From: Tissierellales bacterium
GTDB lineage: Bacteria > Bacillota > Clostridia > Tissierellales > Sedimentibacteraceae
Assembly: GCA_018433765.1 (NCBI GenBank)
Contig: JAHDQO010000021.1
Span: forward strand, 62,001-126,000
Reading direction: 5' to 3'
DNA length: 64,000 nt
Positions 1 to 58,326 of the stretch are shown piece by piece. Numbering within the stretch: the stretch's first letter is position 1; each line of letters starts with the position of its first letter. The notes beneath the pieces were generated by a model that was not told the DNA's origin, did not search any database, and saw only the letters and a program-made list of their open reading frames with translations. A program made the position numbers and the translations under genes.

Positions 1-369
1 GATAATAGTAAACCATATAAAACAAAAAATAATGAAACAATTACTGAACAGCTACGCTTCTCCATTTTGGAAAAAGGAAAAGAATTAACTGGGCCATTTA
101 CAATTAGATACTATATGAAAACTTCAAGTGATGATGTTTCAGTTTACAATCTTGATAATAACAAGTGGAATAAAATTGATGCTGAAATTGATGGAAGTTA
201 TATAGTATTTAAAACTAATCAGACTGAGTTAACCTTTAGTGTTGTTAACATTGATAATAGTATGTTTCTTATAATTAAAGTAATTATTGCTGTTGCCGTA
301 GTAGCTGGCTTAATTATTTTAATTAGAATAAGAAAAAAACGAAAAAATAAACAGTTAGCATCTAATTAA
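1..369 (+). CDS. C-terminal part of a membrane-anchored surface protein (5'-truncated by window edge)
   Basis: The reading frame is open from base 1, so the gene starts upstream of the window; the TTG at 67 is not needed as a start. What is visible is about 80 residues of beta-rich, Asn/Asp-rich sequence ending in a hydrophobic segment of roughly 23 residues and then a basic tail rich in Arg/Lys. This is the layout of an exported protein held in the membrane by one C-terminal helix with a short cytoplasmic tail. No LPXTG sorting motif is visible. The family cannot be named from this fragment. A hairpin with a T-run follows 11 bases after the stop, so it is the last gene of its transcript. Confidence 0.6.
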   Translation, partial: DNSKPYKTKNNETITEQLRFSILEKGKELTGPFTIRYYMKTSSDDVSVYNLDNNKWNKIDAEIDGSYIVFKTNQTELTFSVVNIDNSMFLIIKVIIAVAVVAGLIILIRIRKKRKNKQLASN

Positions 370-380
370 TTCTTAAAATA

Positions 381-423
381 AAAGATTCAGTATAGCTTTA
401 ATGGCTTTTACTGAATCTTTTTT
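381..423. terminator. Rho-independent terminator between convergent genes
   Basis: A perfect 12-bp stem (381-392 with 409-420) and a 16-base loop are followed by a T-run on the plus strand and preceded by an A-rich tract, so it can stop transcription from both sides. It lies between the surface-protein fragment and the convergent MFS gene. Confidence 0.85.
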
Positions 424-433
424 AATACTTCCT

Positions 434-1630
434 TTAACTGCTCTGACTTAGTTGAGTGAATTTTTTTTGAATTACTATCAGTGTTATTAACATAATTGCT
501 GCAAATGTTAATATTACAACTGAAAATCCTAAATTAATACCTATTATATCACTCACAATTCCTAACAGCCAAGGTCCAAGCATACCTCCTATACCAGCAA
601 ATGCAAATAGTACTCCTAATCTAAGAGATACATTATCTTTAGATATTTCAGATACAGCCGCTGTAGTTGTAGGAAAGATAATTGAAATAAATAATCCTGT
701 TAAAGGTACAAGAAATGATATCTCTTTAGGTCCAAATGCTCCCAAAGCTAAACATATTATTGCTGAACTAATGGAATAAATCATTATTTTAATATAACCT
801 ATTTTTTCTATAATAAAACTACAAAAGAATCTACCAAACATTATACCAAAGAAAAATAGTGATAGTGCAATTGAACTTATTGAAATAGACCAACCTTTAT
901 ATTCTTGTAAATATTCAACTATCCAAGATGCAAATCCTATTTCCATACCTACATAACTTAAAATAACTATATTGAATAACATCATTTTTTTTGAAAACAA
1001 TATTGTTTTAATTGTATTGAAATTAATCTTATCTTTTTTTATAATTGGTTTTTTGTAATTTATAAAAAGAAAATATACAATTAATATAGCAAGCATTACA
1101 GCTGACATTCTATAAATAATTTTCCATGATACATTAGCTTGTATTAATTTTCCTGCAATCAAAGGTCCTATCATTGAACCTAAACTGTGGAAAAAGCATA
1201 AGAGTAATAAATATTTTCCTCTTTTATTGCTGTCCGCATATAAATCAACTATCAAAGCATTACCTGCAACTTCAATTACTCCTAATCCTAATCCAACAAC
1301 TATCATCGAAAAACTTAATAATATTAAAACAGCACTATAGGAATATGAAATTACGCCAATGAATAATAAAACTGCTCCTAATATTGTAAGCCATTTTCTT
1401 CCTATCATATCTCCTATGATTCCAGAAAAAATTACTGCAATAAAAAATCCAAAATAAGCTCCTAAAAATATTGTTCCTGCATTTGAGTAGTTAAAGCCTA
1501 GTTCTTGTAATAATATAGATATTGTAGGACCTTTTAAATTATCTACAAATCCAAATATAAAAAATGACAAAAATGCACCTATAGTACCAACTAATAATGC
1601 AGTTGATTTGTTTTTACTCTTATTATTCAT
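434..1630 (-). CDS. MFS transporter, last gene of the putative azasugar operon
   Basis: The 398-residue protein has about 12 hydrophobic segments. The MFS motif A between helices 2 and 3 is visible as GDMIGRK near residues 73-79. It lacks a periplasmic domain or large loop. It begins 53 bases after the GH35-type gene and is the last gene of the block transcribed from 7406, before the terminator at 381-423. Sugar-permease-like MFS members of this size occur in both uptake and export. Because it follows the aminotransferase, phosphatase and dehydrogenase genes, export of an iminosugar product is inferred; uptake of a galactoside for the neighbouring glycosidase is the alternative. Assignment to MFS is firm, the substrate is not known. 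Confidence 0.85.
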   Translation of the reverse strand: MNNKSKNKSTALLVGTIGAFLSFFIFGFVDNLKGPTISILLQELGFNYSNAGTIFLGAYFGFFIAVIFSGIIGDMIGRKWLTILGAVLLFIGVISYSYSAVLILLSFSMIVVGLGLGVIEVAGNALIVDLYADSNKRGKYLLLLCFFHSLGSMIGPLIAGKLIQANVSWKIIYRMSAVMLAILIVYFLFINYKKPIIKKDKINFNTIKTILFSKKMMLFNIVILSYVGMEIGFASWIVEYLQEYKGWSISISSIALSLFFFGIMFGRFFCSFIIEKIGYIKIMIYSISSAIICLALGAFGPKEISFLVPLTGLFISIIFPTTTAAVSEISKDNVSLRLGVLFAFAGIGGMLGPWLLGIVSDIIGINLGFSVVILTFAAIMLITLIVIQKKFTQLSQSS

Positions 1631-1683
1631 TATTTAACCTCCGGTTATTTTGTTTAATTTACTAAATTCTATCCAATCTATTC

Positions 1684-3882
1684 TCAATTCAATATTGTAT
1701 ATTGTCCCTTTTCAAACTTTATGATTGCATCACAACTCTCAATTGTTTTAATAACATCTTTATTGAATTCTATATGTATTGGCTTTGATTTATTAGTTAT
1801 CTCATTTATGCCCTTAATATAGCAAGATTCTATTTTACTATTTCTTATTTTTACTATTGAAAAGCATTTCCCTTCCAGCAATATCTTCAGTTTTTCATTG
1901 TCTATAGGATAGAAGATATGCTGTGAATTTTCATCTCTGTTTATAATAAATATATATTTTATTTTCTCAGTTTTGTTTTCATATTCCGATACATATAATT
2001 TGTTAGATACTTCTCCTATTATTTTTTCATGTTCTATTTTCATACTTTTGTATAATTTATTAATACTCTCTTTATCTGGTTTTATATTGAAATATATTAC
2101 ATTACCATTTTGACTAATATCCTCTTTCTCCTTTTGTAAATCCAAGAATATCTTTTCTTGCAGAATATTGCATTTTTCAAAACATTCATCCATTGTAGGT
2201 ATATCCCAAAAGACTGCTAAATTACCGCCTTTTTCAATATAAGAACACAACAAGGTTTGTACTTTTTTTGATAGAAAAAATCCACCAAAAAATATTAAGT
2301 TATCATACTTGCTAAGTTCATCTAACGAAATAGTTTCTAAGTTCTCAAATTTGAAACTAATATTATCTTCTATAAATTGTTCCATTACTTTTATCATACC
2401 TTCAGAAGCAGATAGAGGTATTTTTCCTAAAATATTATTATCTATTTTCTCTTTATCTGACCAAGAAGTAACTTGTAAATAAGGTATGTATATTCCTAAA
2501 CACACATCAGCTCTTTGCGTGCAATTAAGTAAATCATCTTCGTTATTAAGGTATTGTGTAAATAACTTCAATGAATTGTATTTGTCGGTTTTACTTCCAT
2601 CTACTCTTATTGGTGCTTCTTCACAATAAGGTGGTTCAAAGAAATTGTCTATACTTATATGCTGTTTTGAAATTTCTGCATCAAATTTTAGATTATCGTC
2701 CCATTCCTCTGTTGTGCATATGTTATATACATTAAAACCTGTTGCTCCTGATGCAAGTAGCAAAACTGAATGAAATATAGGTGTTATTGGTTTTGCATAT
2801 GTTTTATCTGTCCATACATGACCCCAATTATCTTCAATATTAGGACCATTAAACCTTTTTGACGTGAATACTATTCTGTTGAATGCATCGTCATCATATA
2901 TAGCGTTACCTGCCCAATTTGTATAGCCGTAGTTAACACTTTTGTAGTTTTCTGGCACTATTCTAGTTAACCAGCTATCATATTCTTTACTTTCTTGACC
3001 ATTGAACAATTCCTTTTTAGATGGAGGATTGACATTTACTAACTTAACTACTTTGCTGCCAAAAATATTAGAATATGTCTCATAAAAATTATTCAAATAT
3101 GACTCCACCCATTTACCCCAGTCAATGTATTCAAATAATGAATTTATATTTGTTATACTGCCAAATTCTCTTGATGGATTTATTTCTTGAAAATTTATAT
3201 ACCTTGTTTTATGCTTTATGTTATACTGTTCAATCGTAACATACTCACTTTCTAGAAACTCTCTAAATCTTTTGATTCCGATATTTGAATAGTCATAATT
3301 CTTAATATCTTGATTTGCTTGACTATACATACCTTCATTACCTATCTGTACACCGATTATTGGTCCTTTAGGATATACATTATGATGTATTATTTTATCC
3401 CATAATATTGAAAACCATTTAATCGCTTCATTGTTAAATTCATCTGCTAATGGCGATGGCAGTATATCTCCTATATAGTTTAGTGGTTTACCTTCATAAT
3501 TTGTTATTGGTTCAATTTTTTTGTTTTTACTTGGTGTAACATAATCAGGCAATCCACCTATAGGTACTTCTCCGTGAATAAAGGGGCCTGGTTTTATTAT
3601 GGCGTATAAATCGTGTTTTTTTACAAGCTGTATGAAGTATTCTAAATTCTTATTTGTTCCTTTCTTATCTATACAATATGTATTATTGTCTCCATTTATA
3701 TGATGACGCCATGGAATATAAAATGTAATAATATCTATTCCTAACTCTTTTATTGCTATAATCTTCTTTTCCCAATTAAGAGCATTATCTCTATAATAAG
3801 GATAGTCACCAGAAATTAGTATTTTAGGTTTTCCATCTATTAATAATTTTCCGTCTAATATATTAATACCTTCTTTTTGCAT
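1684..3882 (-). CDS. GH35-type glycoside hydrolase (beta-galactosidase-like), cytoplasmic
   Basis: The N-terminal 350 residues follow the GH35 (beta/alpha)8 barrel: a first-strand region with DGKPKILISGDYPYY, then GPFIHGEVPIGGLP at 99-112, and the acid/base site QIGNEG with Glu183 where family members usually have QIENE. The likely nucleophile is Glu350 in IEDNWG, matching the family's E-W-G region. The C-terminal half is divergent. There is no signal peptide, so it acts inside the cell. At 732 residues it is within the family range. It sits between the polyol dehydrogenase and the MFS gene. Possible roles are hydrolysis of a galactoside or of a glycosylated iminosugar. The Gly181 substitution next to the catalytic Asn-Glu pair suggests altered specificity. 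Confidence 0.75.
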   Translation of the reverse strand: MQKEGINILDGKLLIDGKPKILISGDYPYYRDNALNWEKKIIAIKELGIDIITFYIPWRHHINGDNNTYCIDKKGTNKNLEYFIQLVKKHDLYAIIKPGPFIHGEVPIGGLPDYVTPSKNKKIEPITNYEGKPLNYIGDILPSPLADEFNNEAIKWFSILWDKIIHHNVYPKGPIIGVQIGNEGMYSQANQDIKNYDYSNIGIKRFREFLESEYVTIEQYNIKHKTRYINFQEINPSREFGSITNINSLFEYIDWGKWVESYLNNFYETYSNIFGSKVVKLVNVNPPSKKELFNGQESKEYDSWLTRIVPENYKSVNYGYTNWAGNAIYDDDAFNRIVFTSKRFNGPNIEDNWGHVWTDKTYAKPITPIFHSVLLLASGATGFNVYNICTTEEWDDNLKFDAEISKQHISIDNFFEPPYCEEAPIRVDGSKTDKYNSLKLFTQYLNNEDDLLNCTQRADVCLGIYIPYLQVTSWSDKEKIDNNILGKIPLSASEGMIKVMEQFIEDNISFKFENLETISLDELSKYDNLIFFGGFFLSKKVQTLLCSYIEKGGNLAVFWDIPTMDECFEKCNILQEKIFLDLQKEKEDISQNGNVIYFNIKPDKESINKLYKSMKIEHEKIIGEVSNKLYVSEYENKTEKIKYIFIINRDENSQHIFYPIDNEKLKILLEGKCFSIVKIRNSKIESCYIKGINEITNKSKPIHIEFNKDVIKTIESCDAIIKFEKGQYTILN

Positions 3883-3909
3883 AAGTATTAACCACCTTTT
3901 TTATATTAA

Positions 3910-3978
3910 TTTCTTAACACTACCTGTGTTAAGAAAATTGTTGTGTTAGTCGATTTATTATTATAAACTAACACAACA
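3910..3978 (-). promoter_or_regulatory. Tandem hairpins between dehydrogenase and GH35 genes
   Basis: Two perfect inverted repeats lie side by side. One has 11-bp arms (3910-3920 with 3926-3936) and a 5-base loop; the other has 12-bp arms (3939-3950 with 3967-3978) and a 16-base loop. All four arms contain GTGTTA or its complement, so alternative pairings are possible. No T-run follows, which argues against simple termination. In the minus-strand transcript they lie just before the ribosome site of the GH35 gene, so they could act in mRNA processing, differential expression or protein binding. Confidence 0.55.
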
Positions 3979-4012
3979 TGTATAAGAAAAATATATAAAA
4001 TAAGATTTGTTT

Positions 4013-5047
4013 TTATTCAAAATTGAATGCTATTTTCATTGCATGTCTTTCTACCGGTTCCTTTGTATTAATATTGTATCCGACAAGCATGCTTAATGCC
4101 TTTTCGTATTCTTCTAAAGGCATCTTATGAGTTATAAGTTTTTCTAACTCATAGTTTTCTGCTAAATCAATAGCTTCTGCGAATACACTATTATAATCAC
4201 CTGCACCTATAATTTGTATTGCATTGTTTGTAATATAAAGTGGTGAAATATTAGCTCTATATTTTGAGTTAAAACCCATAAGTACTATTCTCCCACCTTT
4301 ATCAACTATTTGTAAGGATTCTTCTAAAAGCACACCTGTTACATCAACTACAAGATTTGCTTTTCTATTGTTATTTATAGATTTTATTTTATCTTTATAA
4401 TTCTCGTCTGATGAATCTATTACATTGTCACAAAATTGTTTTGCAAATTCTATTCTATATTTATCTTTTTCAACGATAGTAATGTTTTTAGCTACTTTTT
4501 GAGCTACAATAGCAAATACTAAACCTATTGGCCCTGCACCTAAAATTACAACCGAATCTTCCACTGATAAATTACATGCCCTAATATTGTTTAAAACACA
4601 AGCTAATGGTTCAACAAGTACTGCTTTGTCAAAACTCATACTATCTGGTATTTTATATACAAAATTATCTGGCATAACTATATACTCTGCAAAAGAACCA
4701 TCCATATCTACCCCTACTTCTTTACCAGCTTTATTATCGCATAAATTAAACTTTCCTCTATTACAATAATAACAATCACTATCAAATAATGTAGGGTCAA
4801 TAATTACTCTATCATTCTTTTTAAACTTTGTTACTTTATTACCTACTTCTTCTACTACGCCTACTGCTTCATGTCCCAAAACTACACCTTTTTTCGCGTT
4901 AAAAGTTCCACTAAATATTCTTAAATCAGTTCCACAAATTCCTGAGCTATGAATTTTAATTAAAACATCATTAGAATTACTCACCTTAGGAATTTCTTTC
5001 TCTTTTAATTCAATTTCTTCTATATCTTTAAATAATAATGCTTTCAT
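4013..5047 (-). CDS. gutB1: Zinc-dependent polyol/alcohol dehydrogenase, GutB1-like (azasugar pathway)
   Basis: This 344-residue medium-chain dehydrogenase has catalytic zinc ligands visible as Cys38 (GICGTD), His59 and Glu60 (GHE), and the Rossmann motif GAGPIG at 170-175. The structural zinc lobe has Cys92, Cys95 and Cys103, but the position of the first cysteine is Asp89. The family includes sorbitol, threonine and galactitol-phosphate dehydrogenases. In the known azasugar pathway the equivalent enzyme oxidises the C6 hydroxyl of 2-amino-2-deoxymannitol, which then cyclises. Here the gene follows the phosphatase by 109 bases and has the ribosome site GGAAGGAG. Dehydrogenase family is certain; GutB1 assignment rests on gene order. 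Confidence 0.78.
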   Translation of the reverse strand: MKALLFKDIEEIELKEKEIPKVSNSNDVLIKIHSSGICGTDLRIFSGTFNAKKGVVLGHEAVGVVEEVGNKVTKFKKNDRVIIDPTLFDSDCYYCNRGKFNLCDNKAGKEVGVDMDGSFAEYIVMPDNFVYKIPDSMSFDKAVLVEPLACVLNNIRACNLSVEDSVVILGAGPIGLVFAIVAQKVAKNITIVEKDKYRIEFAKQFCDNVIDSSDENYKDKIKSINNNRKANLVVDVTGVLLEESLQIVDKGGRIVLMGFNSKYRANISPLYITNNAIQIIGAGDYNSVFAEAIDLAENYELEKLITHKMPLEEYEKALSMLVGYNINTKEPVERHAMKIAFNFE

Positions 5048-5156
5048 ATTTATATAACTCCTTCCATTTTCTAATAATTAATAGACTGTGTTATGACTAT
5101 ATAGGGTCTCACACTTCATAAGTAAGTAATTAAAGTCAAATATCTTATACTAACTA

Positions 5157-6086
5157 TTAACATAAGACTTTTTCTATTTCATCAATATTATTTATCCATC
5201 TAATGTTTTCCATAACTGCTGTATGCAATTGCTTATTAGATGCAGCAATACATGATTGAAGGTTTTCTTTTGATATGTCTAACAGTTTTGTTACTCCTAG
5301 ATCACAACCGTATGCATCTGTTATTATAACCCCAGCTTTCTTTGCTATATATACAGCCGCTGCTATATCGTATGGAAACAGATGAAGCAATTGTCCGTTA
5401 CCTACTTTTCTAAATTCATTTTCTAGTTCTGGTACATCCTTCACTAACCTATTTCCAATATCAACATAACAATCTAGCTGTCCAGTGATTATTCTTGATA
5501 TTGAATATGTTGCACTATTAAATATAAAAATTCCTCCTGGATTAGCTGATTTGTCTATTAACTCACCTAAGGAATATGTTATTATCCGAGCCGGATGTCC
5601 ATTAAACTCCATACTCCAAAACATTTTACTTGGTAATATAGTATTGCTTAATTGTAATTGATTATTATTTATTTCTAATCCTGTATGATCTGCATAAAAT
5701 GTTGATTTTGTTTTAAATTCATAAAGCAGAGCATACTTTACATCGTTTATACATGCATCTTCTTTATATAAAGATACTGCAATAGAAAAACATGAACACT
5801 CCAATCCTGCTGCTGCTCCACGAGTTCCGTCAATTGGATCTATTATTAATAAGTATTCAGGATCTTCACATAATTTTTTAAGTCCTTTATCTTCAGAATA
5901 ATAAGCAATTTTCTTATTTGATTTCATTAAAAAGTCATACACTGCATTTTCAGCAATATCGTCAATATCAAATTGTGTATCTCCTCCCGGAGATAGTCCT
6001 GTATTCCTTTTAGCTTTTAATATGTCAAATTTTGATGACACTTCACTGATTACATAGTTTGATAACGTAAATATAAACTCTTTCAT
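5157..6086 (-). CDS. yktC1: Inositol-monophosphatase-family sugar phosphatase, YktC1-like (azasugar pathway)
   Basis: The 309-residue protein shows the metal-binding set of the IMPase/FBPase superfamily: Glu65 in SEDKG, Asp83 and Asp86 in DPIDGT, and Asp240 in the C-terminal PYDIAAAV motif. These coordinate magnesium for phosphate-ester hydrolysis. It starts 9 bases after the stop of the aminotransferase, with a weak ribosome site, so the two are probably translationally coupled. In the gabT1-yktC1-gutB1 pathway this enzyme dephosphorylates the 6-phosphate of 2-amino-2-deoxymannitol. As a lone gene it would be called an inositol monophosphatase; its neighbours argue for the azasugar role. Confidence 0.78.
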   Translation of the reverse strand: MKEFIFTLSNYVISEVSSKFDILKAKRNTGLSPGGDTQFDIDDIAENAVYDFLMKSNKKIAYYSEDKGLKKLCEDPEYLLIIDPIDGTRGAAAGLECSCFSIAVSLYKEDACINDVKYALLYEFKTKSTFYADHTGLEINNNQLQLSNTILPSKMFWSMEFNGHPARIITYSLGELIDKSANPGGIFIFNSATYSISRIITGQLDCYVDIGNRLVKDVPELENEFRKVGNGQLLHLFPYDIAAAVYIAKKAGVIITDAYGCDLGVTKLLDISKENLQSCIAASNKQLHTAVMENIRWINNIDEIEKVLC

Positions 6087-6095
6087 AATGCTTCC

Positions 6096-7406
6096 CTATC
6101 TTTGGAATTCATCCAAAACCTTTTCTAGTTTTGTCATCATTTCGTCACACTCTTCTAATGTTATGTTTAACGAAGGTCTTATCTTGAATACATTTCCAAA
6201 TCCATATAGTGATGTTCTTATCAATAACCCATTTTTTAATGCTCTTTTAGCAATTTCTTTTGTTAGGTTCTTATCAGGTTCTTTTGATTTTTTATCTTTT
6301 ACTATTTCGACTCCAATCATCAACCCTACTCCTCTTACATCACCAATAAAATCATATTTTTCTTTAAATTTATACAATATTTCCATTATGAAATCCCCAC
6401 AATTTGTAACATTGTCAAGGAATTGATCATTATTTATTATATCTAGTGTCTTAACTCCTGCTGAACAGCTTAAAACATTAGAACCATAAGTAAAAGAATG
6501 CAAGTAACCTTCCATTATATTAAATTTTTCTTCCATAAGTATTGCTGCAATCTGAAAACCTGTACCACCCAGTCCTTTTGCAACACTCATCAAATTGGGT
6601 TCAACATCAAAATATTGTGCTGCAAACATTTTTCCTGTTCTTCCTATACCAGTTTGTATTTCATCAAAAATTAATACAATATTTTCTTCATCACATAGCT
6701 GTTTTAACTTATGAAAAAATTCTTTTGGCGGTACTTGGTTTCCACCATTTCCTAATATAGGCTCCATTATTATGCAAGAAACGTTTCCAGATGAACCATA
6801 AATTAAATAATCTCTTATCTGTTCAACACATTTACAATTACATTTAGGATATTCTGATTCTAAATGACATCTATAACAATAGGGATAAGGTATATGACTA
6901 ATATTATTTTGAGAAAAATTGAAAGGTTTTCTTCTAAAGGATAAGCCTGATACTGTCTGCATAAAAATAGTTTGTCCAACATGACTTCTATAAAAACTTA
7001 CTACTTCTCTTTTACCTGTATAATATTGTGCTAGTTTTATAGCACCTTCGTTAGCAGTAGATCCGCTACTTACTTTAGTTGTAACCTTAGTAAGATTATC
7101 AGGTGAAACTTCAATTAAATTCTTTGCTAATTCTAATACTGGTTTGCATAGATATGACGATGACAAATGAACCATTTTATCTGCCTGTTCTTTTACAGCA
7201 CCAATAACTTCTTTGTTTTGATATCCAAGACTTAAATTAAATGTTCCTGCTTCACAATCTATGTACTGTTTTCCTTCACTGTCCCACAAATAAATTCCAT
7301 CACCTGTAACAAATTCAATATTTTTTATGTCTTCCCCTCTAAAGATATAATCCTTTAACTCTTGCACATTTTCATAAGTATTTTTTCTCTTTGCTAAAAC
7401 ACTCAT
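6096..7406 (-). CDS. gabT1: PLP-dependent class-III aminotransferase, GabT1-like (first step of azasugar pathway)
   Basis: The 436-residue enzyme has the class-III layout: GSGSTANEG around 114-121 for the phosphate of PLP, Asp248 in IFDEIQTG for the pyridine nitrogen, and Lys277 in SVAKGLGG for the Schiff base. A cysteine-rich insert (Cys177, 180, 189, 191, 193) resembles one found in a subset of Bacillus-type class-III enzymes. Relatives transaminate 4-aminobutyrate or ornithine; GabT1 of the azasugar pathway transaminates fructose 6-phosphate. It is the first gene of the operon, with a good GAGGAGG site. Family is certain; the sugar-phosphate substrate is inferred from the phosphatase and dehydrogenase genes that follow. 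Confidence 0.8.
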   Translation of the reverse strand: MSVLAKRKNTYENVQELKDYIFRGEDIKNIEFVTGDGIYLWDSEGKQYIDCEAGTFNLSLGYQNKEVIGAVKEQADKMVHLSSSYLCKPVLELAKNLIEVSPDNLTKVTTKVSSGSTANEGAIKLAQYYTGKREVVSFYRSHVGQTIFMQTVSGLSFRRKPFNFSQNNISHIPYPYCYRCHLESEYPKCNCKCVEQIRDYLIYGSSGNVSCIIMEPILGNGGNQVPPKEFFHKLKQLCDEENIVLIFDEIQTGIGRTGKMFAAQYFDVEPNLMSVAKGLGGTGFQIAAILMEEKFNIMEGYLHSFTYGSNVLSCSAGVKTLDIINNDQFLDNVTNCGDFIMEILYKFKEKYDFIGDVRGVGLMIGVEIVKDKKSKEPDKNLTKEIAKRALKNGLLIRTSLYGFGNVFKIRPSLNITLEECDEMMTKLEKVLDEFQR

Positions 7407-7714
7407 AATAAATTCCTCCTCAATATATTTGATTTAATTAGTTGAACTTATACAGTATTTCACAAATATATATCTACTTTATTATTATCATTAAATACTC
7501 TATAACTTTATATTTTGTTATTGATTTATTCATTAATATACTTTATAGTATTTATAATTACCAACTAATAAACTATTTCTATTTTGTTTCTCCTGTATTT
7601 GTCATTTTGTCAACTAATTTCTATTTATGTGATATTTTAGCATGATAGGTTTAGTAAATTTGTCGAATATTCTGTTGTTTTAAAATTTTATGATTTTTTT
7701 TATAATATTTTTGA

Positions 7715-7785
7715 AATAACGAATCGAAATGGTATACATTTTAAATATATATAGTTAAATGTTGTACCAACTGAGCCAGCTTTGA
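7715..7785 (-). other. Possible decayed tRNA remnant in the 7407-7865 gap
   Basis: On the minus strand, 7765-7781 reads as a tRNA D-arm (core GCTCAGTTGGTA), and about 40 bases later 7721-7728 reads TTCGATTC, a T-loop-like element. The D and T stems no longer pair and no acceptor stem can be formed, so it is not a working tRNA. The rest of the 459-base gap is AT-rich; it holds the rpiA terminator and the untraced promoter of the azasugar operon, and no other gene is seen. Confidence 0.3.
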
Positions 7786-7821
7786 TAGATATAATTATAA
7801 TTAATAAAAAAAATAAAAAAA

Positions 7822-7842
7822 GGAAGAGAAAAAATCTCTTCC
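7822..7842 (-). terminator. Terminator of rpiA
   Basis: An 8-bp perfect stem (7822-7829 with 7835-7842) and 5-base loop are followed on the minus strand by a long T-rich tract (7801-7821). Confidence 0.85.
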
Positions 7843-7865
7843 AATCTTACAAGTCATTCTAGCCA

Positions 7866-8534
7866 TTACTTTTTTTCTATTACTTTTACCCCTTTATCTG
7901 TACCTACTATGATTCTATCACACATATTTATAAATAATCCAACTTCTAACACACCTGTAATATTGTTTAGGGTTTTTAAAATATTATTTATATTTATTGG
8001 CTTACCTATGTGTAAATCAGCTATATAATTTCCATTATCGGTAACAAACGTTTTGCCATCTTTTAATCTTAAAACAGGATTTAGAAAATTATCTCTTAAT
8101 GCTTTTAATGTATGCTTATAACCATATGGCAGTATTTCAACTGGTAAAGGAAATTCACCTATATAATCTACTAATTTACTTTCATCCATTATCCAAATTA
8201 CTTCTTTAGCTAAATTGGCTACCATTTTCTCTCTAAAAAGAGCACCCCCACCACCTTTTACAGCATTAAAATCACTATCTATTTCATCAACACCATCTAT
8301 ATCTAAATCTATTTTTTCAACTTCATCTATTGATAATAAGGGTATATTTAATTCTTTAGCAAGTTTTTCTGTACTTTTTGATGTAGCAACTGCTTTAATA
8401 TTCATTCCTTTAGCAACTAACTCTCCTACTTTTCTTATCATATAATAAGCTGTTGAACCGCTTCCTAATCCCAATATCATACCATCTTTAATATACTCTA
8501 CTGCTTTTTCTCCAGCAATTTTCTTTTGTTCCAT
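7866..8534 (-). CDS. rpiA: Ribose-5-phosphate isomerase A
   Basis: The enzyme interconverts ribose 5-phosphate and ribulose 5-phosphate in the pentose phosphate pathway. Visible RpiA motifs are GLGSGSTA near the N-terminus, DGVDEID and KGGGGALFREK, which bind the phosphosugar and carry the catalytic acidic and lysine residues. The start is placed at the ATG at 8534 because GGAGG lies 9 bases before it; an upstream ATG at 8564 would put this ribosome site inside the coding region. The length of 222 residues is normal. It appears to be a single-gene transcript with its own terminator, between the azasugar and restriction operons. Confidence 0.95.
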   Translation of the reverse strand: MEQKKIAGEKAVEYIKDGMILGLGSGSTAYYMIRKVGELVAKGMNIKAVATSKSTEKLAKELNIPLLSIDEVEKIDLDIDGVDEIDSDFNAVKGGGGALFREKMVANLAKEVIWIMDESKLVDYIGEFPLPVEILPYGYKHTLKALRDNFLNPVLRLKDGKTFVTDNGNYIADLHIGKPININNILKTLNNITGVLEVGLFINMCDRIIVGTDKGVKVIEKK

Positions 8535-8661
8535 ATGTAATAACCTCCATATTATTACTACCAATCAAAATTGTTTATTTATTTATATAAATTATATATT
8601 ATCTTTAATGCAACTATGTAATAAGACACAGGAACTTGCTTCAATTTGTTATTTCTTTTGA

Positions 8662-11661
8662 TTATTTTCTAAGTTCTTTAAACAAAACTTCTTCCATCAT
8701 ATTCATTATAAATTTCATCTTTTCTTCATCGCTAAATAAGCTCACAAAGAAATTATCATTTTCTTCATATCTATTTACTGCTACATCTTTAAACTTTTGT
8801 TCATATAAATATTTAAACAGCGATTTATCATTAGATTTAGCGGCATTAACTATTTTTTCATCTTTTGCAAAATCAGATTTCATCTGCTCTAATACTTTGT
8901 CCTGCTCTGTAAACTTAGTTCCAAATCTTTCATTCATCTTTTCAATGATTACAGAAAGTGGATCTTCGTTCTTCTGTTTTGCTCCAACTCCACCTTTTAT
9001 ATTTGCTATATAACATTCATCTGATTCATCTATAGCAATACTGCCTTCAAAAGTTTTAGAAAGCTTATAATATTCAAGTATTACTTTATCTGAAATATCA
9101 ACTTTATTAATTTCACCTTTTGGAAGGCATTTTCCTAGAAACTTAGCATATACAAAAAACTTCTGCATATCCTTATCATACATTTTGCAGACTTGTATGA
9201 TAAATGAATATATACGAACAAAAGTTGAAAGTGTTGACTTAAATTCTTCTCTTTCTGCATTTTCTTTAACACAATATCTATCTAGTGCAGGTTTAATACA
9301 TGCTGAAAGAACTGCTTGTGTATTTTTATTGCTGCGTCCATAGTATATTTGTGCAAAATGTTCTACCTCGGTCTGCTGATATATCTGAAATTCATCTAAT
9401 CCATTTTTCAAATCATATATAACGTTTGGGTCTGTCTCTTGTTCTAATATAGCTGCTTCATAATAAGGTTTAAAAGCTGTCTGTATTTCATCTGCACTAT
9501 TCACAAAATCAAGTACAAAAGTATCTTCTTTACCTATCATTGTTCTATTTAATCTTGATAAAGTTTGTACAGCTTTTACTCCGCTTAATTTTTTATCTAC
9601 AAACATTGTATGTAAAAGAGGTTCATCAAATCCTGTTTGATATTTTTCTGCAACAATTAACATATTAAAATCTTCACTATGAAAATATTCTTTCAATTGA
9701 AATTCTCTAATTGTTTCACCATTTTTGTTTTTATTAATCTTTTCTTCCGTAAAATCATCTTTATAATCATTAACAGTTCCTGAAAATGCAACTAAAACAT
9801 CTAAGTCGTTGTAGCCTTTTTCTTTAATATATCTTCTGAATTCAAAAAGATATCTAACAGCATGAAGTCTTGAAGATGTAACTACCATTGCTTTTGCCCT
9901 GCCGCCTATTTTATTTTTAGTAATACACTTAAAATGTTCTACCATAATTGCAGTCTTTTGAGCTAAATTATGGGGATGCAGACTTTCATATCTTGCAATT
10001 GCCTTTGCACCTTTACTTGAATCTACGTCAGGGTCATCTGCTGCTTTCTTAGCAATTTTATAATACATTTGATATGTAGTGTAGTTCTGCAGTACATCTA
10101 ATATAAAGTGTTCTTCTATAGCTTGTCTCATTGAATAAATGTGAAAAGCTTTGAATTTACCATCAAGTTGTTTTTCTCCAAACATTTGAAGTGTCTTTTC
10201 CTTTGGAGTGGCTGTAAATGCAAAGAATGATAAGTTGCTCAGCTGTCCATGAGAAATAAGTTCATCAACTAACTTGTCTTCATCATCTTTTACTTTTTCT
10301 TCTGCTTCGCTTTCCATCTTTCTGTATTCTTCTAATAGTTCTTCCTTATTTGCTAATGCTTTTTTTAATTTTTTAGATGCTTCACCTGTTTGACTTGAGT
10401 GTGCTTCATCTACTATGATTGCAAAATTTCTGCCGTTTGCTTGAACCTCATTATAGATTACAGGAAATTTTTGAAGTGTAGTTATTATAATTCTCTTTCC
10501 TGCATTGATAGCATCTCTTAAATCAACTGCATGTTTTTTCTTGTCAATACACTCTACAACTCCAAGCACATGGTCGAATTGATATATTGTATCTTGAAGC
10601 TGACTATCTAATATCCTTCTATCTGTAACTACAATTATAGATTGAAATATAGATTCATCACTGCTGTCATGCAGTCCTGCAAGTCTATGTGCAAGCCAAG
10701 CTATGGAGTTGGATTTACCGCTGCCTGCACTGTGCTGAATAAGATAGTTTTTTCCTGCTCCATTTGACTTTACATCTGCAAGCAGTTTTGTCACTACATC
10801 TAGTTGATGAAATCTCGGAAATATCAAGGTTTCTTCTGTATATTTATTTTCATAATTATATTTCTTTTCTTCTTTTTTAAGATGCATGTACTTATTAAGA
10901 ATCTCCATTAATCTATCTTTGCAGAGAACATTTTCCCAAAGGTAAGCTGTTTGATAACCTTCAGGATTTAATGGATTGCCAGCACCTCCAACACTACCGC
11001 ACCCGTTAGAACCTTGATTGAATGGTAAAAAGTAAGTATTTGCTCCATTTAATTTTGTTGTCATATGTACTTCGTATAAATCTACTGCAAAATGAACTAA
11101 TACTCTATTTCTAAATTGAAATATTGTATCTTTACCTGCTCTGTCAAACTTGTACTGGTCTATAGCATTTAAAACACTTTGACCTGTGAATTGGCATTTC
11201 AGCTCCATTGAAACAACCGGTATTCCATTTAAAAATAATACAATGTCTATACTGTTTTCATTAAAAACTGAATAGTGAAGCTGTCTTGTGCAGTGAAGTA
11301 TATTATCATCGTATTGCTTAACTCTTTGAGAATTTATAGAAGTTTCCGGTTTAAAGAAACATACTTTAAACTCAACACCTCTATCCTTAAATCCATGTCT
11401 TAAAACAGCTAATAATCCTCTGTTTCTAACTTCTTTACAGAAACGCTTAATAAAGCTTTCCTCTGCATCTAATTTATAAATTTTACAATATCTTTCCCAT
11501 TCTTTAGGCTGTGTTTTCTTAATAAAATTAATCAAGGTTTCTTTATCTAAGGCTAGTTCTCTATCAAAGTTTTTAGGATTACCTTTTTCATATCCGCCCT
11601 TTGTAGTTAAGTACTCTTCTATGGCTTCTTCAAAAGCTTTTTCTTTTAATTCTGCATCCAT
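8662..11661 (-). CDS. hsdR: Type I restriction enzyme, R (endonuclease/translocase) subunit
   Basis: HsdR translocates and cleaves unmodified DNA. The 999-residue protein carries the N-terminal nuclease core with Asp139, Glu153 and Lys155 (ELK). Two RecA-like motor domains follow, with Walker A GSGKS at 313-317, the DEAH box at 418-421, motif III FTATP, and the late motif QTLSRLNRT. A C-terminal helical domain for binding the methylase complex follows. It starts 2 bases after the hsdS stop, with the ribosome site AAAGGAGG. Length and motifs look intact, so the system is probably active. Confidence 0.95.
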   Translation of the reverse strand: MDAELKEKAFEEAIEEYLTTKGGYEKGNPKNFDRELALDKETLINFIKKTQPKEWERYCKIYKLDAEESFIKRFCKEVRNRGLLAVLRHGFKDRGVEFKVCFFKPETSINSQRVKQYDDNILHCTRQLHYSVFNENSIDIVLFLNGIPVVSMELKCQFTGQSVLNAIDQYKFDRAGKDTIFQFRNRVLVHFAVDLYEVHMTTKLNGANTYFLPFNQGSNGCGSVGGAGNPLNPEGYQTAYLWENVLCKDRLMEILNKYMHLKKEEKKYNYENKYTEETLIFPRFHQLDVVTKLLADVKSNGAGKNYLIQHSAGSGKSNSIAWLAHRLAGLHDSSDESIFQSIIVVTDRRILDSQLQDTIYQFDHVLGVVECIDKKKHAVDLRDAINAGKRIIITTLQKFPVIYNEVQANGRNFAIIVDEAHSSQTGEASKKLKKALANKEELLEEYRKMESEAEEKVKDDEDKLVDELISHGQLSNLSFFAFTATPKEKTLQMFGEKQLDGKFKAFHIYSMRQAIEEHFILDVLQNYTTYQMYYKIAKKAADDPDVDSSKGAKAIARYESLHPHNLAQKTAIMVEHFKCITKNKIGGRAKAMVVTSSRLHAVRYLFEFRRYIKEKGYNDLDVLVAFSGTVNDYKDDFTEEKINKNKNGETIREFQLKEYFHSEDFNMLIVAEKYQTGFDEPLLHTMFVDKKLSGVKAVQTLSRLNRTMIGKEDTFVLDFVNSADEIQTAFKPYYEAAILEQETDPNVIYDLKNGLDEFQIYQQTEVEHFAQIYYGRSNKNTQAVLSACIKPALDRYCVKENAEREEFKSTLSTFVRIYSFIIQVCKMYDKDMQKFFVYAKFLGKCLPKGEINKVDISDKVILEYYKLSKTFEGSIAIDESDECYIANIKGGVGAKQKNEDPLSVIIEKMNERFGTKFTEQDKVLEQMKSDFAKDEKIVNAAKSNDKSLFKYLYEQKFKDVAVNRYEENDNFFVSLFSDEEKMKFIMNMMEEVLFKELRK

Positions 11662-11663
11662 TA

Positions 11664-12920
11664 TTACACCTCCTTTTTACCTGTTACACATTCATATATT
11701 AAGGATTTCTTGTATTCTGTCAGCTTTTTTATTAGTTCTTGCTTTTTGCATATAGCTTTGTCTATTGTTGTGCATTTTTTGTCTAGGTAATTGGATATTT
11801 GTTTTTGTTCTTGAATATTTCCTATTACAATAGCTGCATTCATAACGTCACTAATTGTTATTGAATCGTAAGTAGAACCTTTTGATTTTACATCAAATTC
11901 CTTGTTAATAATATTAATAAAATACCATAATAATTTATTATTAATATTATTAACTCTTAATGCACATAATCCTCTTCCTATAGCATATCTTTTATTTGCT
12001 AAATTTTTAGCACCTACCGGAGCTCTTACTGATAAAAGTATATCATTTGTTTGTACAAATTTATTTGCTTTTTTAGTATACACTCTTTCATTTGGATATA
12101 ATTCTGTAAAATCTGCATTTCCTTGTAGAAAGGGTTCACCTATACCTTCCATATTATAATTATTGGAACTAGGTGACTGACCCATTATTATTTCACAGCA
12201 GTATTTTAATTTGCAAACTTTCCATTCCTCAGGTATCTCCCCAATCCACTCAATACCGCTGTCTTTCATCTTTACATCAGGATTTAATCCTTTTGTTACT
12301 GCTTCTGTTATGATGGACTGCTTGTACTCTTTCAGCTTTTCTATTACCTGCTTCTGTTTTTCTATTGTTTGGTCTATTGTTGTGCATTTGGTGTCTAGGT
12401 AATTGGCTATTTGTGTTTGTTCATCTTTGCTTAGAATTAGTATTATTGTATTACCTAATGTTTGATTATTTAATATAGGTAGCGTAGTGAATAATGCTGT
12501 ATCTTTAATTACATCTATACTAGCTAACATCATATATAGTAAATATTTAGGATTAATACATTTTTTAGGAATAATTGCTGTAATCTGTTGATTTGAACTT
12601 GATTCTCCAGTCGTAAATCCTAGTTTTCCAACTGTTGCTCCAATTCCAACTATTAAAATACAATTAAGTGGAAATATAGGAGCTATATTTTCTTTAATAA
12701 AACTTTTATTTAAATTTCGAGATGATTTATTTAATATTAATGACTCGTTAAAGTCACTAGGAGTAAACCAGTTAAAGTCTCCTTCAAAAACCTCTTTATT
12801 TTTTGTTGATGGTGTTGATCCTGTTTTTAAATATGCATATCTTCTTAATTTTCTTACTTTCCACTCTTCCGGTATCTCCCCTATCCATTCAACTCCGCTG
12901 TCTTTCATCTTCCTAGTCAT
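11664..12920 (-). CDS. hsdS: Type I restriction-modification specificity subunit
   Basis: HsdS sets the DNA target for both methylation and cutting. The 418-residue protein has two target-recognition domains, each opening with a nearly identical segment ending in EWIGEIPEEWKV (residues 5-22 and 218-235) and each followed by a conserved helical spacer (about 169-208 and 375-415) starting QISNYLD or QIANYLD. The two halves recognise the two parts of a bipartite site. It overlaps the end of hsdM by 8 bases. The start has GGAGG 9 bases upstream. The internal repeats are also similar as DNA, which gives a route for domain swapping. Confidence 0.95.
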   Translation of the reverse strand: MTRKMKDSGVEWIGEIPEEWKVRKLRRYAYLKTGSTPSTKNKEVFEGDFNWFTPSDFNESLILNKSSRNLNKSFIKENIAPIFPLNCILIVGIGATVGKLGFTTGESSSNQQITAIIPKKCINPKYLLYMMLASIDVIKDTALFTTLPILNNQTLGNTIILILSKDEQTQIANYLDTKCTTIDQTIEKQKQVIEKLKEYKQSIITEAVTKGLNPDVKMKDSGIEWIGEIPEEWKVCKLKYCCEIIMGQSPSSNNYNMEGIGEPFLQGNADFTELYPNERVYTKKANKFVQTNDILLSVRAPVGAKNLANKRYAIGRGLCALRVNNINNKLLWYFINIINKEFDVKSKGSTYDSITISDVMNAAIVIGNIQEQKQISNYLDKKCTTIDKAICKKQELIKKLTEYKKSLIYECVTGKKEV

Positions 12921-14628
12921 TGAATATTTCCTCCAGTACTCCTTCTAAATCTAGTTCTATATCCATTATTTCAGCCATTATTTCGTCTGATGGTTTTGGA
13001 GGTATATATTTATAAAAGTATCTTGTGAATGGAATTTGATATCCTGTTTTTGTTTTCTTTTCATCTATCCAAGCATCAGATGCAAATGGCAGAACTTCTC
13101 TTTTGAAGTATTCTTGTATATCTTCTTTTAATGGAACATTTTCTGTATCACGAAGTTTAGTATCTGCAACAGGTTTCCCTTTTTTGAGTTCTACTTCTCC
13201 CTTTTCACTTTTTTTTGGTCTTTCTACTACTATTTTTGAAAATCCGAAGTCTTCGTTGTCGAATATTTTACTTATTTTACTTTCTTTGAATTCTCCGTAT
13301 AACTTTGTTATTTCATCTATATAATGTTTAGGTATATCATTTCTTTTGTTGCCTAATGATTTTCTGCGTTTTTCATATAGTTTATTAGCATTGATAAGCT
13401 GTACTTTTCCTTTTCTAAAGCTCGGTTTTTTATTGGACAACACCCATATGTAAGTTGCTATACCTGTATTGTAAAAAATATCATTAGGCAGAGCTACTAT
13501 AGCTTCTAACAAGTCATTTTCTATTATGTATTTTCTTATTTCTGAAGGTCCGCTTCCTGCATCTCCTGTAAACAGAGGTGAACCATTATGAATTATTGCA
13601 ATTCTAGAGCCTTGCGGTTTCATTTTTGATACTGCTGTCTGTAAAAACAGCATCTGTCCGTCACCTACTGCCGGCAGTCCTGCTCCAAATCGTCCTGCAA
13701 AACCAAGTTTTGCTTCGCTCTGTACGGCTTTCCTATCATTTTTCCACTCACGTCCAAAGGGAGGATTTGATAATATATAATCAAATTTATCTCCTTTAAA
13801 TTTGTCATCTGATAATGTGTTACCGTTTTTAATATTATCAGCACTTGCACCTTTGATAAGCATATCTGCTTTGCATATAGCATATGTCTGGTCATTTATT
13901 TCTTGTCCAAATGCTATGAGTTCTGCATTCTTATTAAATTTTTTCAAATAATCTTCTGCAACAGAAAGCATACCCCCTGTACCGCAAGCTGGGTCAAATA
14001 TAGTTTTAGCTATATCTTCTGTTAATAGTTCGCTGTCATTGTAGAACAATATGTTTACCATGAGTTCAATTACTTCTCTTGGAGTGTAATGCTGTCCTGC
14101 ATCTTCATTATGTGCTTCTGAAAATCTCCTTATAATCTCTTCAAATATATAGCCCATTTCAAGATTGGAGATTTTATTTGGATGCAAGTCTGCTTGAGGT
14201 TTAACGAATTCTTGAATTACTATGTACAAAAGGTTTTTTTCTGCGAGTCTGGTTATTTGATTGTCAAAACTAAATTTTTCTATTATATTACGGACATTTT
14301 CAGAAAAGCCGTTTAAATATGCTCTAAAGTTATCTTCAATTCCATCTGGGTCGCTTAGAAGTTTTTGAAAATCAAATTTACTTGTATTATAAAATGAATA
14401 TCCTGATTCTTTACATAAAAATACATCTTTTATTGTAATCTTGCCTAATCTTTCATTTTTGTTTAATACTGCTTCTTTTGTATCAGCTAAGACACAGTCG
14501 AAACGTCTTATTACTGTAAGAGGTAAAATTACTTCGCCGTATTCATGAGGTTTGTACACTCCTGTTAATTTGTCAGCTATTGCCCATATTAAATTGGCTT
14601 TTTCATTTATGTTAGTACTTATACCCAT
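12913..14628 (-). CDS. hsdM: Type I restriction-modification adenine methylase subunit
   Basis: HsdM transfers methyl from S-adenosylmethionine to adenine N6. The N-terminal helical HsdM domain (about 1-150) is followed by the methylase core with motif I DPACGTGG at 214-221 and catalytic NPPF at 290-293. The start is placed at the ATG at 14628, with AAGGAG 8 bases before it; a GTG six bases earlier is too close to the ribosome site. It is the first gene of the M-S-R operon. Length of 571 residues is within the family range. Confidence 0.95.
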   Translation of the reverse strand: MGISTNINEKANLIWAIADKLTGVYKPHEYGEVILPLTVIRRFDCVLADTKEAVLNKNERLGKITIKDVFLCKESGYSFYNTSKFDFQKLLSDPDGIEDNFRAYLNGFSENVRNIIEKFSFDNQITRLAEKNLLYIVIQEFVKPQADLHPNKISNLEMGYIFEEIIRRFSEAHNEDAGQHYTPREVIELMVNILFYNDSELLTEDIAKTIFDPACGTGGMLSVAEDYLKKFNKNAELIAFGQEINDQTYAICKADMLIKGASADNIKNGNTLSDDKFKGDKFDYILSNPPFGREWKNDRKAVQSEAKLGFAGRFGAGLPAVGDGQMLFLQTAVSKMKPQGSRIAIIHNGSPLFTGDAGSGPSEIRKYIIENDLLEAIVALPNDIFYNTGIATYIWVLSNKKPSFRKGKVQLINANKLYEKRRKSLGNKRNDIPKHYIDEITKLYGEFKESKISKIFDNEDFGFSKIVVERPKKSEKGEVELKKGKPVADTKLRDTENVPLKEDIQEYFKREVLPFASDAWIDEKKTKTGYQIPFTRYFYKYIPPKPSDEIMAEIMDIELDLEGVLEEIFND

Positions 14629-14661
14629 TGTCACATCTCCTTATGTTTGTTGTTTTTTAAT

Positions 14662-48368: not shown

Positions 48369-49340
48369 TTATATTTTATTTTCTTTCCATTCTCTTCCAA
48401 TCTTCATGAACGCTTCAATATTTTCTAGTGGAGTTTCAAGTGCCAAATCGCATCCTGTACTTAGTACAAAATTGTGCACTCCATCCATAGTTTTTATGAA
48501 TCGCCTTGTATATTGTTCTACTTCTAAAGGAGTTCCCTGTAACAATATACTTACAGGATCAACGTTTCCTATTAAAGTCATATCTTTTGGAACTTTCTCT
48601 GACAGCTCTTTAAAATTCATAGGTGAATCTAAACTTAGTCCTACTGCACCAGACTCACACATGCCTTGAACAAGGTGGTTTGTATTTCCACATATATGTA
48701 GTATTATTGGTTTGTTATCAACATTTTTCAATATTCTTTTAAATGGATTTAACGAATTTTCAATATAGCTTTTAGGTGAAAGTAACATTGCAGTTGGCTC
48801 GAGTATTATAACTGAATCGGCACCTGCACTAAATAAAGCATTTGAATACTCACTAATAATATCTACACTAAAATCTAACAGTTTTTTTATTATTTCTGGG
48901 TTTGTTACTGTAGCCATAGATGCATCAGTAACACCCATCATTTCACCTACTAAAGTAAAAGGTCCTATAGCATAAGCATACTTAGCTACCTTATCCGGAA
49001 GTTCTTCAGCCATTTTCCTAACAACATCTATAAAAACATTCATCCTTCCATCAACGCCATTATAGCTTTTCTTCATATCTTTTAACTCTTCTTCAGTTTT
49101 TATAGGATGTATTTTAACTGCTGGATTATCATTTTCAGGAAATTTAAGTTTCATACCTAAAGAATCTGCTTCAACTGTCAAATCCATAAATGGAATAATA
49201 GCATCAGGTTTAAATCTTTTATATAATTGGTAAAGTGTTTCAAATTGTATGTCAGCATTAGTAAGATTCTGTTTTAGGGTTGTTTTTGTAAGTTTAGTTC
49301 CTGGTGCACCAAGTAATGGTACAACCATTTTTTTTACCAT
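48369..49340 (-). CDS. MtaA/uroporphyrinogen-decarboxylase-family corrinoid methyltransferase
   Basis: The 323-residue protein has the UroD-type barrel and the zinc site of MtaA/MtbA enzymes: His215 and Cys217 in HICGN, and Cys297 in STGCDL. In methylamine systems such a protein moves the methyl group from the corrinoid protein to its final acceptor (coenzyme M in archaea, tetrahydrofolate-type acceptors in bacteria). It is the last gene of the operon. The thiol or pterin acceptor is not certain here. Confidence 0.88.
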   Translation of the reverse strand: MVKKMVVPLLGAPGTKLTKTTLKQNLTNADIQFETLYQLYKRFKPDAIIPFMDLTVEADSLGMKLKFPENDNPAVKIHPIKTEEELKDMKKSYNGVDGRMNVFIDVVRKMAEELPDKVAKYAYAIGPFTLVGEMMGVTDASMATVTNPEIIKKLLDFSVDIISEYSNALFSAGADSVIILEPTAMLLSPKSYIENSLNPFKRILKNVDNKPIILHICGNTNHLVQGMCESGAVGLSLDSPMNFKELSEKVPKDMTLIGNVDPVSILLQGTPLEVEQYTRRFIKTMDGVHNFVLSTGCDLALETPLENIEAFMKIGREWKENKI

Positions 49341-49376
49341 TTATTAACCTCCTTTATTTCACCGACTAACTAATTT

Positions 49377-50165: not shown

Positions 50166-50235
50166 GATTCTTCCTCCCTTTTTTATAAAAAATACCTGCT
50201 TGAGTAAGAATTTTTCTTACTCAAGCTCATTATTA

Positions 50236-51741: not shown

Positions 51742-51776
51742 TTAAACTTTCCTCCTTATACAAAATAATTTCAATA

Positions 51777-52799: not shown

Positions 52800-52860
52800 T
52801 TCGTTATCCTCCTATTATTAAGTTTTTAAATTAGACGGTTTTGACTGATTTTAATTGTCA

Positions 52861-53508: not shown

Positions 53509-53605
53509 GATTTATACCTCCTATTTTTTATAAAATATAATATCTATAAATAAATATAGATTTATTATCAAAAAACCAAAATGTTAGAAAACCTTTTCCA
53601 AACAG

Positions 53606-56525: not shown

Positions 56526-56526
56526 A

Positions 56527-58080: not shown

Positions 58081-58086
58081 ATCACT

Positions 58087-58314: not shown

Positions 58315-58326
58315 TTTAATACTCCT

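Follow-up and report, generated by a model that had tools for sequence, protein, structure and literature searches.

A probable five-gene azasugar operon with a GH35-family gene in a Tissierellales bacterium

Comparison with described azasugar clusters

Azasugars (iminosugars) inhibit glycosidases and are of interest as drug leads; the part they play in nature is not yet settled (survey by Beal and Horenstein, 2021, PMC8382821). In this survey, an azasugar cluster consists of three genes, encoding an aminotransferase, a phosphatase (PF00459 or HAD) and a dehydrogenase (PF08240/PF00107/PF16912). The survey uses identity thresholds of 40% and 50% to the aminotransferase GabT1 and gives SGNXFRXXXFPNXXXXXXXLXVPXPYCXRC as the aminotransferase consensus. 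The gene order is aminotransferase-phosphatase-dehydrogenase in Bacillus, and the Chitinophaga pinensis cluster leads to DAB-1. Bacillus subtilis 168 is reported to have no such cluster. Here, we describe a 64-kb stretch from a Tissierellales bacterium (assembly GCA_018433765.1, contig JAHDQO010000021.1, positions 62,001 to 126,000; hereafter the window, to which all window coordinates refer). It carries a run of five genes, read on the minus strand, for a class-III aminotransferase, an IMPase-family phosphatase, a zinc-dependent dehydrogenase, a GH35-family protein and an MFS transporter. We consider it probable that the run is a five-gene azasugar operon, and its GH35 protein may act on an azasugar glycoside. 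The azasugar part of this explanation, judged from sequence comparison, is very probably correct.

The three core genes had been recognized in a first-pass annotation, which placed them at 4013-7406 in the order gabT1-yktC1-gutB1 and read them as azasugar genes. We found the genes at this place and in this order, and Pfam agreed with the assigned families. The 9-base spacing given for the first two genes was borne out (6087-6095). In addition, the catalytic positions said to be present are in place in the aminotransferase (K277 and D248), the phosphatase (E65/D66, D83-P-I-D86-G-T and D240) and the dehydrogenase (C38, H59 and E60); presumably these residues have the catalytic roles usual in their families. 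The proposed extent held for the core genes, but it stopped early and missed the GH35 and MFS genes. The metal-site residues of the phosphatase are invariant in 6/6 aligned sequences. In the dehydrogenase, D89 replaces the first of the four usual structural-zinc cysteines, as it does in Clostridium cibarium (locus L019) and Anaerosacchariphilus (L020), and the remaining 5/8 aligned sequences have Cys at this position.

Since the named-genome scan gave no locus from a named Bacillus velezensis, the Bacillus-type reference was a 16-kb locus, L125 (genome G621), assigned by gene order. Its neighbourhood, with an MFS gene, the three azasugar genes, a sulfate permease gene and a bile-acid symporter gene, is the described arrangement of Bacillus velezensis FZB42 (PMC8382821). 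The survey puts tRNA genes upstream of the FZB42 MFS gene, and no tRNA genes were found in the 16 kb of L125 or in the window. Thus, L125 is matched to FZB42 by its other neighbours. The window shares 58% identity with L125 in the aminotransferase (401 residues), 53% in the phosphatase (312 residues) and 40% in the dehydrogenase (339 residues). The BLAST-type comparison called for in the first-pass annotation therefore puts the aminotransferase above both survey thresholds, and these identities, together with the equal gene order, support the azasugar reading. Furthermore, the phosphatase, 9 bases downstream of the aminotransferase, belongs to PF00459, and the dehydrogenase belongs to PF08240/PF00107, which are families of the three-gene definition. 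The window is thus like the B. velezensis-type gabT1-yktC1-gutB1 cluster (deoxynojirimycin) in gene families, gene order, IMPase-type phosphatase and nearby MFS gene. However, a GH35 gene is part of the window run, and the MFS gene follows downstream in the same orientation; the run lacks the sulfate permease and bile-acid symporter genes found in L125, and the host is a different one.

Other clusters were compared in the same way. C. cibarium L019 shares 69% identity with the window in the aminotransferase, 69% in the phosphatase and 57% in the dehydrogenase. The plasmid cluster of P. polymyxa reaches 45% in the aminotransferase, and its GutB1-annotated dehydrogenase reaches 34%. The Paenibacillus and Chitinophaga clusters have a homologous aminotransferase (44-48%) and dehydrogenase (32-36%), but their order is aminotransferase-dehydrogenase-phosphatase and their phosphatase is of the HAD type (PMC8382821; L018), unlike the window. 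A clostridial cluster of the HAD type, with the order aminotransferase-dehydrogenase-HAD, was also seen in L136 and L137 (genus of C. cibarium) and in L138 (Anaeromicropila genome G451). This Anaeromicropila genome holds both cluster types, the HAD type and the GH35-linked one.

The azasugar core of the window is of a known kind; eight Clostridium hits were already tabulated in the 2021 survey (PMC8382821), and Streptomyces azasugar clusters are listed in PMC8466323. We rate the GH35-linked form of the cluster as new. The term GH35 occurs in neither PMC8382821 nor PMC8466323, as far as the portions used here go, and among the open-access papers searched, a single other one, on a chitinolytic Streptomyces, names both azasugar and GH35.

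Phylogeny and spread of the aminotransferase

A tree of 50 aminotransferases (the window and 49 chosen loci) was built using IQ-TREE. The sequences were tblastn stretches with stops read as X, and the choice of loci excluded near-duplicates and weak paralogues. The window aminotransferase grouped with those of C. cibarium L019 and Anaerosacchariphilus L020 (support 94/83) and then with two Ruminococcus sequences (98/99). The large group around them also takes in the azasugar-type enzymes of Bacillus type and those of Streptomyces, Paenibacillus and Chitinophaga. A 100/100 branch parts this azasugar group from the paralogue L002 of the own genome and from six other class-III relatives, so the phylogenetic check proposed in the first-pass annotation places the enzyme in the azasugar clade and not with these seven. 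The best-scoring paralogue in the own genome has 33% identity (242 vs 993 bits).

The same tree bears on whether the aminotransferase belongs to an aminocyclitol pathway of the ValM type. GabT1 and ValM are known to be related (PMC8382821). However, an actinobacterial clade lacking the SG.xFR motif, which is assumed to be ValM-like, is separate from the window in the tree, and no cyclase was found among the neighbouring proteins scanned. We regard a ValM-type role as extremely improbable.

The enzyme was found in few genomes. In the sample of the own class, none of the 390 other genomes has an aminotransferase at E 1e-95 or better (1/391, which is the own genome), and in the nearest 60 host relatives the aminotransferase matches (E 1e-60) all have at most 38% identity. 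At E 1e-90, it was found in 18/348 genomes of the class sample around Lysinibacillus, in 4/68 of the genus of C. cibarium and in 2/250 of the family of Anaerosacchariphilus, the centre genome being included in each case. Among the 18 Lysinibacillus-class loci, three (L107-L109) have both phosphatase and dehydrogenase matches, 13 have a dehydrogenase match only and two have neither. Thus, the cluster is patchy, and it looks to have been either gained by the host or widely lost around it. Carriage by a phage was also considered and rejected; there was no sign of it, the phage-collection matches listed (20 of 47 listed, E 1e-20) have at most 33% identity, and none of the seven candidate stretches in viral_contigs (0/7) is a relative of the aminotransferase.

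The GH35 protein and its linkage to the azasugar-type genes

The named-genome scan with the aminotransferase gave 123 relatives, of which the best 80 were kept, and the locus counts refer to these 80. GH35 adjoins the aminotransferase in eight of them, namely C. cibarium, Anaerosacchariphilus, two Pseudobutyrivibrio, Anaeromicropila, an Archangium metagenome-assembled genome (MAG), an actinobacterial MAG and Streptomyces piniterrae. All eight have a dehydrogenase match (8/8), and six of the eight have an IMPase-type phosphatase; seen from the other side, GH35 is present in 6 of the 13 loci with an IMPase-type phosphatase. The Paenibacillus, Chitinophaga and Pedobacter loci of the scan gave no GH35 match. 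The eight loci are spread over several separate parts of the tree, so the link has either lasted or been remade over long distances.

Because the loci were found through the aminotransferase, the GH35 count is no unbiased sample, and reverse GH35 searches were made to offset this. At E 1e-30, GH35 was found in 1/391 genomes of the own class, which is the own genome. At E 1e-25, it was found in 1/348 of the class sample, which was taken as that of the aminotransferase search around Lysinibacillus, and this match is distant (27%). Among 16 chosen genomes, nine have a GH35 match, and by coordinates the best match is the copy beside the aminotransferase in 9/9; genome G447 carries an additional, weaker match at another place.

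In addition, pairwise identities were compared for the window and seven loci, with L023 left out as a near copy of L022. The Spearman correlation of GH35 identity is 0.85 with that of the aminotransferase (28 pairs) and 0.90 with that of the phosphatase (21 pairs), and it is lower, 0.46, with that of the dehydrogenase (28 pairs). These values are descriptive only, as the pairs are not independent of one another. Further genes were seen around GH35 in some loci. A PHP-domain gene follows GH35 in L019 and L026, and after it comes a ROK gene in L019 or a glycosyltransferase 2 gene in L026.

The structure of the GH35 protein was modelled using AlphaFold2 with a 9-sequence alignment (mean predicted local distance difference test score 83, predicted template-modelling score 0.88). 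In Foldseek, the first row was 7vkz_A, the β-1,2-glucosyltransferase IaSGT of Ignavibacterium album with 1-deoxynojirimycin (E 1.9e-40), and in VIA-align 2 rows 1 to 11 (Z 35.3 to 32.3) were all chains of IaSGT and archaeal GH35 enzymes. Profile, fold and catalytic Glu pair all place the protein in GH35; E183 (acid/base) and E350 (nucleophile) are invariant in 9/9 aligned sequences. No signal peptide was seen by reading the GH35 protein.

The likeness to IaSGT (7vkz_A, 622 residues, Z 33.8, root-mean-square deviation (rmsd) 3.0, 24% identity) includes the fold, the Glu pair, the Asn before the acid/base and the Tyr and Glu residues of subsite -1. By alignment, the window residues of this subsite are Y55, E105, N182, E183, N285, E350 and Y386; N285 is kept in 6/9 cluster sequences and is Pro in L027, L030 and L032. 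Deoxynojirimycin sits at subsites -1 and +1 of the E343G mutant of IaSGT, and the enzyme transfers glucose without hydrolysis (PMC8861115). However, on the acceptor side the window has H103 in place of Leu100 (or Met) and H355 in place of Arg349, and the gene neighbours are of azasugar type and not of β-1,2-glucan type. Arg349 is not conserved in many homologues (PMC8861115). H103 is invariant in 9/9 cluster sequences, and characterised relatives have Leu, Met or Cys there.

The archaeal exo-β-D-glucosaminidases GlmA, also of GH35, share the fold (5gsm_A, Z 33.9, rmsd 3.7, 656 aligned) and the Glu pair. However, Asp178 of TkGlmA, which is thought to read the amino group, corresponds to N182 in the window (invariant, 9/9), and Cys101 of TkGlmA corresponds to H103. 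IaSGT likewise has Asn175 at the place of this glucosaminidase Asp (PMC8861115). Judged by N182, H103 and H355, the window protein matches neither the GlmA-type glucosaminidases nor a typical IaSGT, and it may have a special substrate.

Several observations weigh against an azasugar operon in which GH35 acts on the product, and the first of them concern the aminotransferase. By hand count, 11 of the 16 fixed positions of the published consensus (PMC8382821) are matched (SG, FR, F, P, PYC and RC), with changes of N to L, PN to NF, L to S and V to I; the region is two residues shorter in the window, and it is equally short in the Bacillus-type L125. A second class-III aminotransferase of the own genome reaches 42% over a 222-residue stretch, at a lower score. 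Furthermore, the relatives L021, L024, L025, L028 and L031 (54-65%) have no match to the phosphatase or dehydrogenase of the window nearby. In the tree, such loci are the Ruminococcus pair (L025 and L028), Lysinibacillus (L024), Virgibacillus (L031) and P. cymbidii. Some of these relatives stand in kinase settings, with AA_kinase genes in L024, L025 and L031 and NDK-like genes in L024 and L025. A HAD-family gene adjoins the aminotransferase in L024, and glycosyltransferase 2, DUF6271 and MATE genes are near it in L025. The close relative L128 was likewise seen without a match to the phosphatase or dehydrogenase of the window; the Pfam scans of neighbours covered L024, L025, L031 and little of L128. 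Possibly, L024, L025, L028, L031 and L128 belong to an undescribed pathway for an aminated sugar. Because of these other gene settings, the aminotransferase alone is no proof of azasugar synthesis, and the full set of three genes is a much stronger sign of it.

These relatives lend themselves to another explanation, in which the product of the three genes is not a ring-closed azasugar but a free aminopolyol, or an amino sugar used as a building block of, for example, a surface glycan. Their kinase, glycosyltransferase 2 and DUF6271 neighbours suggest other routes for an aminated sugar, and glycosyltransferase 2 genes also lie downstream of GH35 in L022 and L026. However, the expected aldehyde-forming dehydrogenase is present in the window and in 8/8 of the other GH35-linked loci, and ring closure would then be spontaneous, as the ring closure of an amino-aldehyde is by established chemistry. 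We consider the building-block explanation improbable.

The remaining adverse observations concern GH35 and its linkage. The Bacillus-type loci L125-L127 have no GH35, and their genomes are absent from the GH35 matches of the class sample; thus, GH35 is not needed for azasugar synthesis. Pseudobutyrivibrio L022 and L023 have GH35 and the dehydrogenase and no IMPase match. The identities of the dehydrogenase do not track those of the aminotransferase (Spearman 0.29), and Anaeromicropila and Pseudobutyrivibrio may have acquired another dehydrogenase in place of the original one. In Nonomuraea gerenzanensis, a GH35 relative (L142:10001-11611; 31% to the window, 37% to L026) directly follows a solute-binding protein and two ABC permease frames, which form an ABC sugar importer, and no aminotransferase, phosphatase or dehydrogenase match was found within 10 kb of it. 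After this match, the idea that the GH35 type is exclusive to azasugar loci was rejected. The importer setting suggests that some members of this GH35 group are catabolic. Taken with the aminotransferase relatives in other settings, the Nonomuraea protein means that neither gene alone is diagnostic.

The whole run could also be read as a catabolic operon, in which a glycoside is taken up through the MFS protein, cut by GH35 and then degraded by the dehydrogenase, phosphatase and aminotransferase. The MFS and GH35 genes at the end of the run agree with this, as does the importer beside the Nonomuraea GH35. However, the three enzymes encoded upstream are homologous to biosynthetic enzymes whose genes stand in the same order, and MATE genes, whose products are usually exporters, lie between the dehydrogenase and GH35 genes in L022 and L026. 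We hold a catabolic operon to be very improbable.

It is rather unlikely, though a more serious contender, that the azasugar is made and GH35 is an ordinary β-glycosidase that tolerates the cell's own inhibitor, giving self-protection without ever touching the product. A glycosidase gene beside a glycosidase-inhibitor pathway agrees with this, both catalytic glutamates are kept, and the Nonomuraea GH35 of the same group, in its sugar-importer setting, has the same His and catalytic motifs. On the other hand, a housekeeping stand-in needs no divergence parallel to that of the aminotransferase and phosphatase, and H103 in place of Leu, Met or Cys hints at a special substrate, although Nonomuraea shares this His.

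Limits of the unit, proposed pathway and biological meaning

The features of the run and its limits are listed in Table 1.

Table 1. Genes of the five-gene run and sequence features at its limits
Feature	Position in window	Strand	Remarks
Aminotransferase, GabT1-like, operon gene 1	6096..7406	-	436 aa; Pfam PF00202 Aminotran_3, E 1e-90
IMPase-family phosphatase, YktC1-like	5157..6086	-	309 aa; Pfam PF00459 Inositol_P, E 2e-16
Zinc-dependent polyol dehydrogenase, GutB1-like	4013..5047	-	344 aa; PF08240 (ADH_N, E 6e-30)/PF00107
GH35-family glycosidase or transglycosidase	1684..3882	-	Pfam GH35 PF01301, E 1e-26; GLMA_2nd, E 3.5e-20
MFS transporter, presumed exporter	434..1630	-	Pfam MFS_1, E 5e-44; transport direction inferred
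Terminator-like hairpin and T run after rpiA; upstream limit of unit	7822..7842	-	
Perfect 13-nt inverted repeat and T run after MFS gene; downstream limit	380..421	.	Arms 380-392 and 409-421
Two palindromes, dehydrogenase/GH35 gap	3910..3978	.	3910-3936; arms 3940-3950 and 3968-3978

The intergenic gaps along the five genes are 9, 109, 130 and 53 bases, and a Shine-Dalgarno-like sequence, found by reading, precedes each gene. The gene upstream of the run, rpiA, is unrelated. Two terminator-like sites were found in positions 1-9000 against a shuffle mean of 1.7, which is no excess, so position counts as much as pattern in setting the limits of the unit. The 8 kb past the window edge (L141) gave no match to the five proteins of the operon. 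Both palindromes between the dehydrogenase and GH35 genes carry TAACAC/GTGTTA words, and they are possible operators or RNA hairpins. An Rfam scan of the window gave no match.

Elsewhere in the window, type I restriction-modification genes lie at 8662-14634 (R subunit by Pfam; S and M by reading). Genes for an MttB-type methyltransferase, a corrinoid protein, a URO-D-type protein, an ornithine-cyclodeaminase-like protein and a BCCT transporter lie on one strand at 48369-55189, which looks like a methylated-amine or betaine operon. At 55563-60511, an AMP-binding enzyme has neighbours read as MBOAT, DltD-like and phosphopantetheinyl transferase genes, and these are possibly D-alanylation or related acylation genes.

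For the probable azasugar operon, a pathway can be proposed by homology to that of Bacillus. A ketose phosphate, most likely fructose 6-phosphate, would be aminated at C2 by the aminotransferase. The IMPase-type phosphatase would then remove the phosphate, and the zinc dehydrogenase would oxidise the C6 hydroxyl set free in this way. The resulting amino-aldehyde would close spontaneously to a nojirimycin- or mannojirimycin-type ring. In Bacillus, the epimerase and reductase that act after the three-gene stage are not yet identified, according to the portion of the survey used here (PMC8382821). The MFS protein would export the product. GH35 would either attach a β-linked sugar to the azasugar by transglycosylation or remove one from an azasugar glycoside, and the glycosylated inhibitor would be held masked inside the cell.

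Three roles of GH35 are possible, namely attaching a sugar, removing a sugar or serving as an insensitive glycosidase. That it acts on the azasugar itself is a tentative proposal, which we put at somewhat below an even chance; the gene linkage, the fold and the deoxynojirimycin complex of the nearest structural relative hint at it weakly. More broadly, the operon family of Clostridia, the myxobacterial MAG and actinobacteria might make a glycosylated azasugar (a pseudo-disaccharide) with the GH35 transglycosidase as tailoring enzyme, which we put forward as a speculative and on present evidence unlikely idea. If it is true, a retaining glycosidase-fold enzyme, of the class that the product would inhibit, acts as a tailoring enzyme.

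Azasugar genes in Clostridia such as C. cibarium, Anaerosacchariphilus and Anaeromicropila would place inhibitors among polysaccharide-degrading bacteria. Pseudobutyrivibrio also has the aminotransferase, the dehydrogenase and GH35, and one of its records is titled as from water-buffalo omasum. Furthermore, the GH35 gene that recurs beside the aminotransferase offers a concrete way to test for masking, self-protection or late tailoring, which the Bacillus studies have left open.

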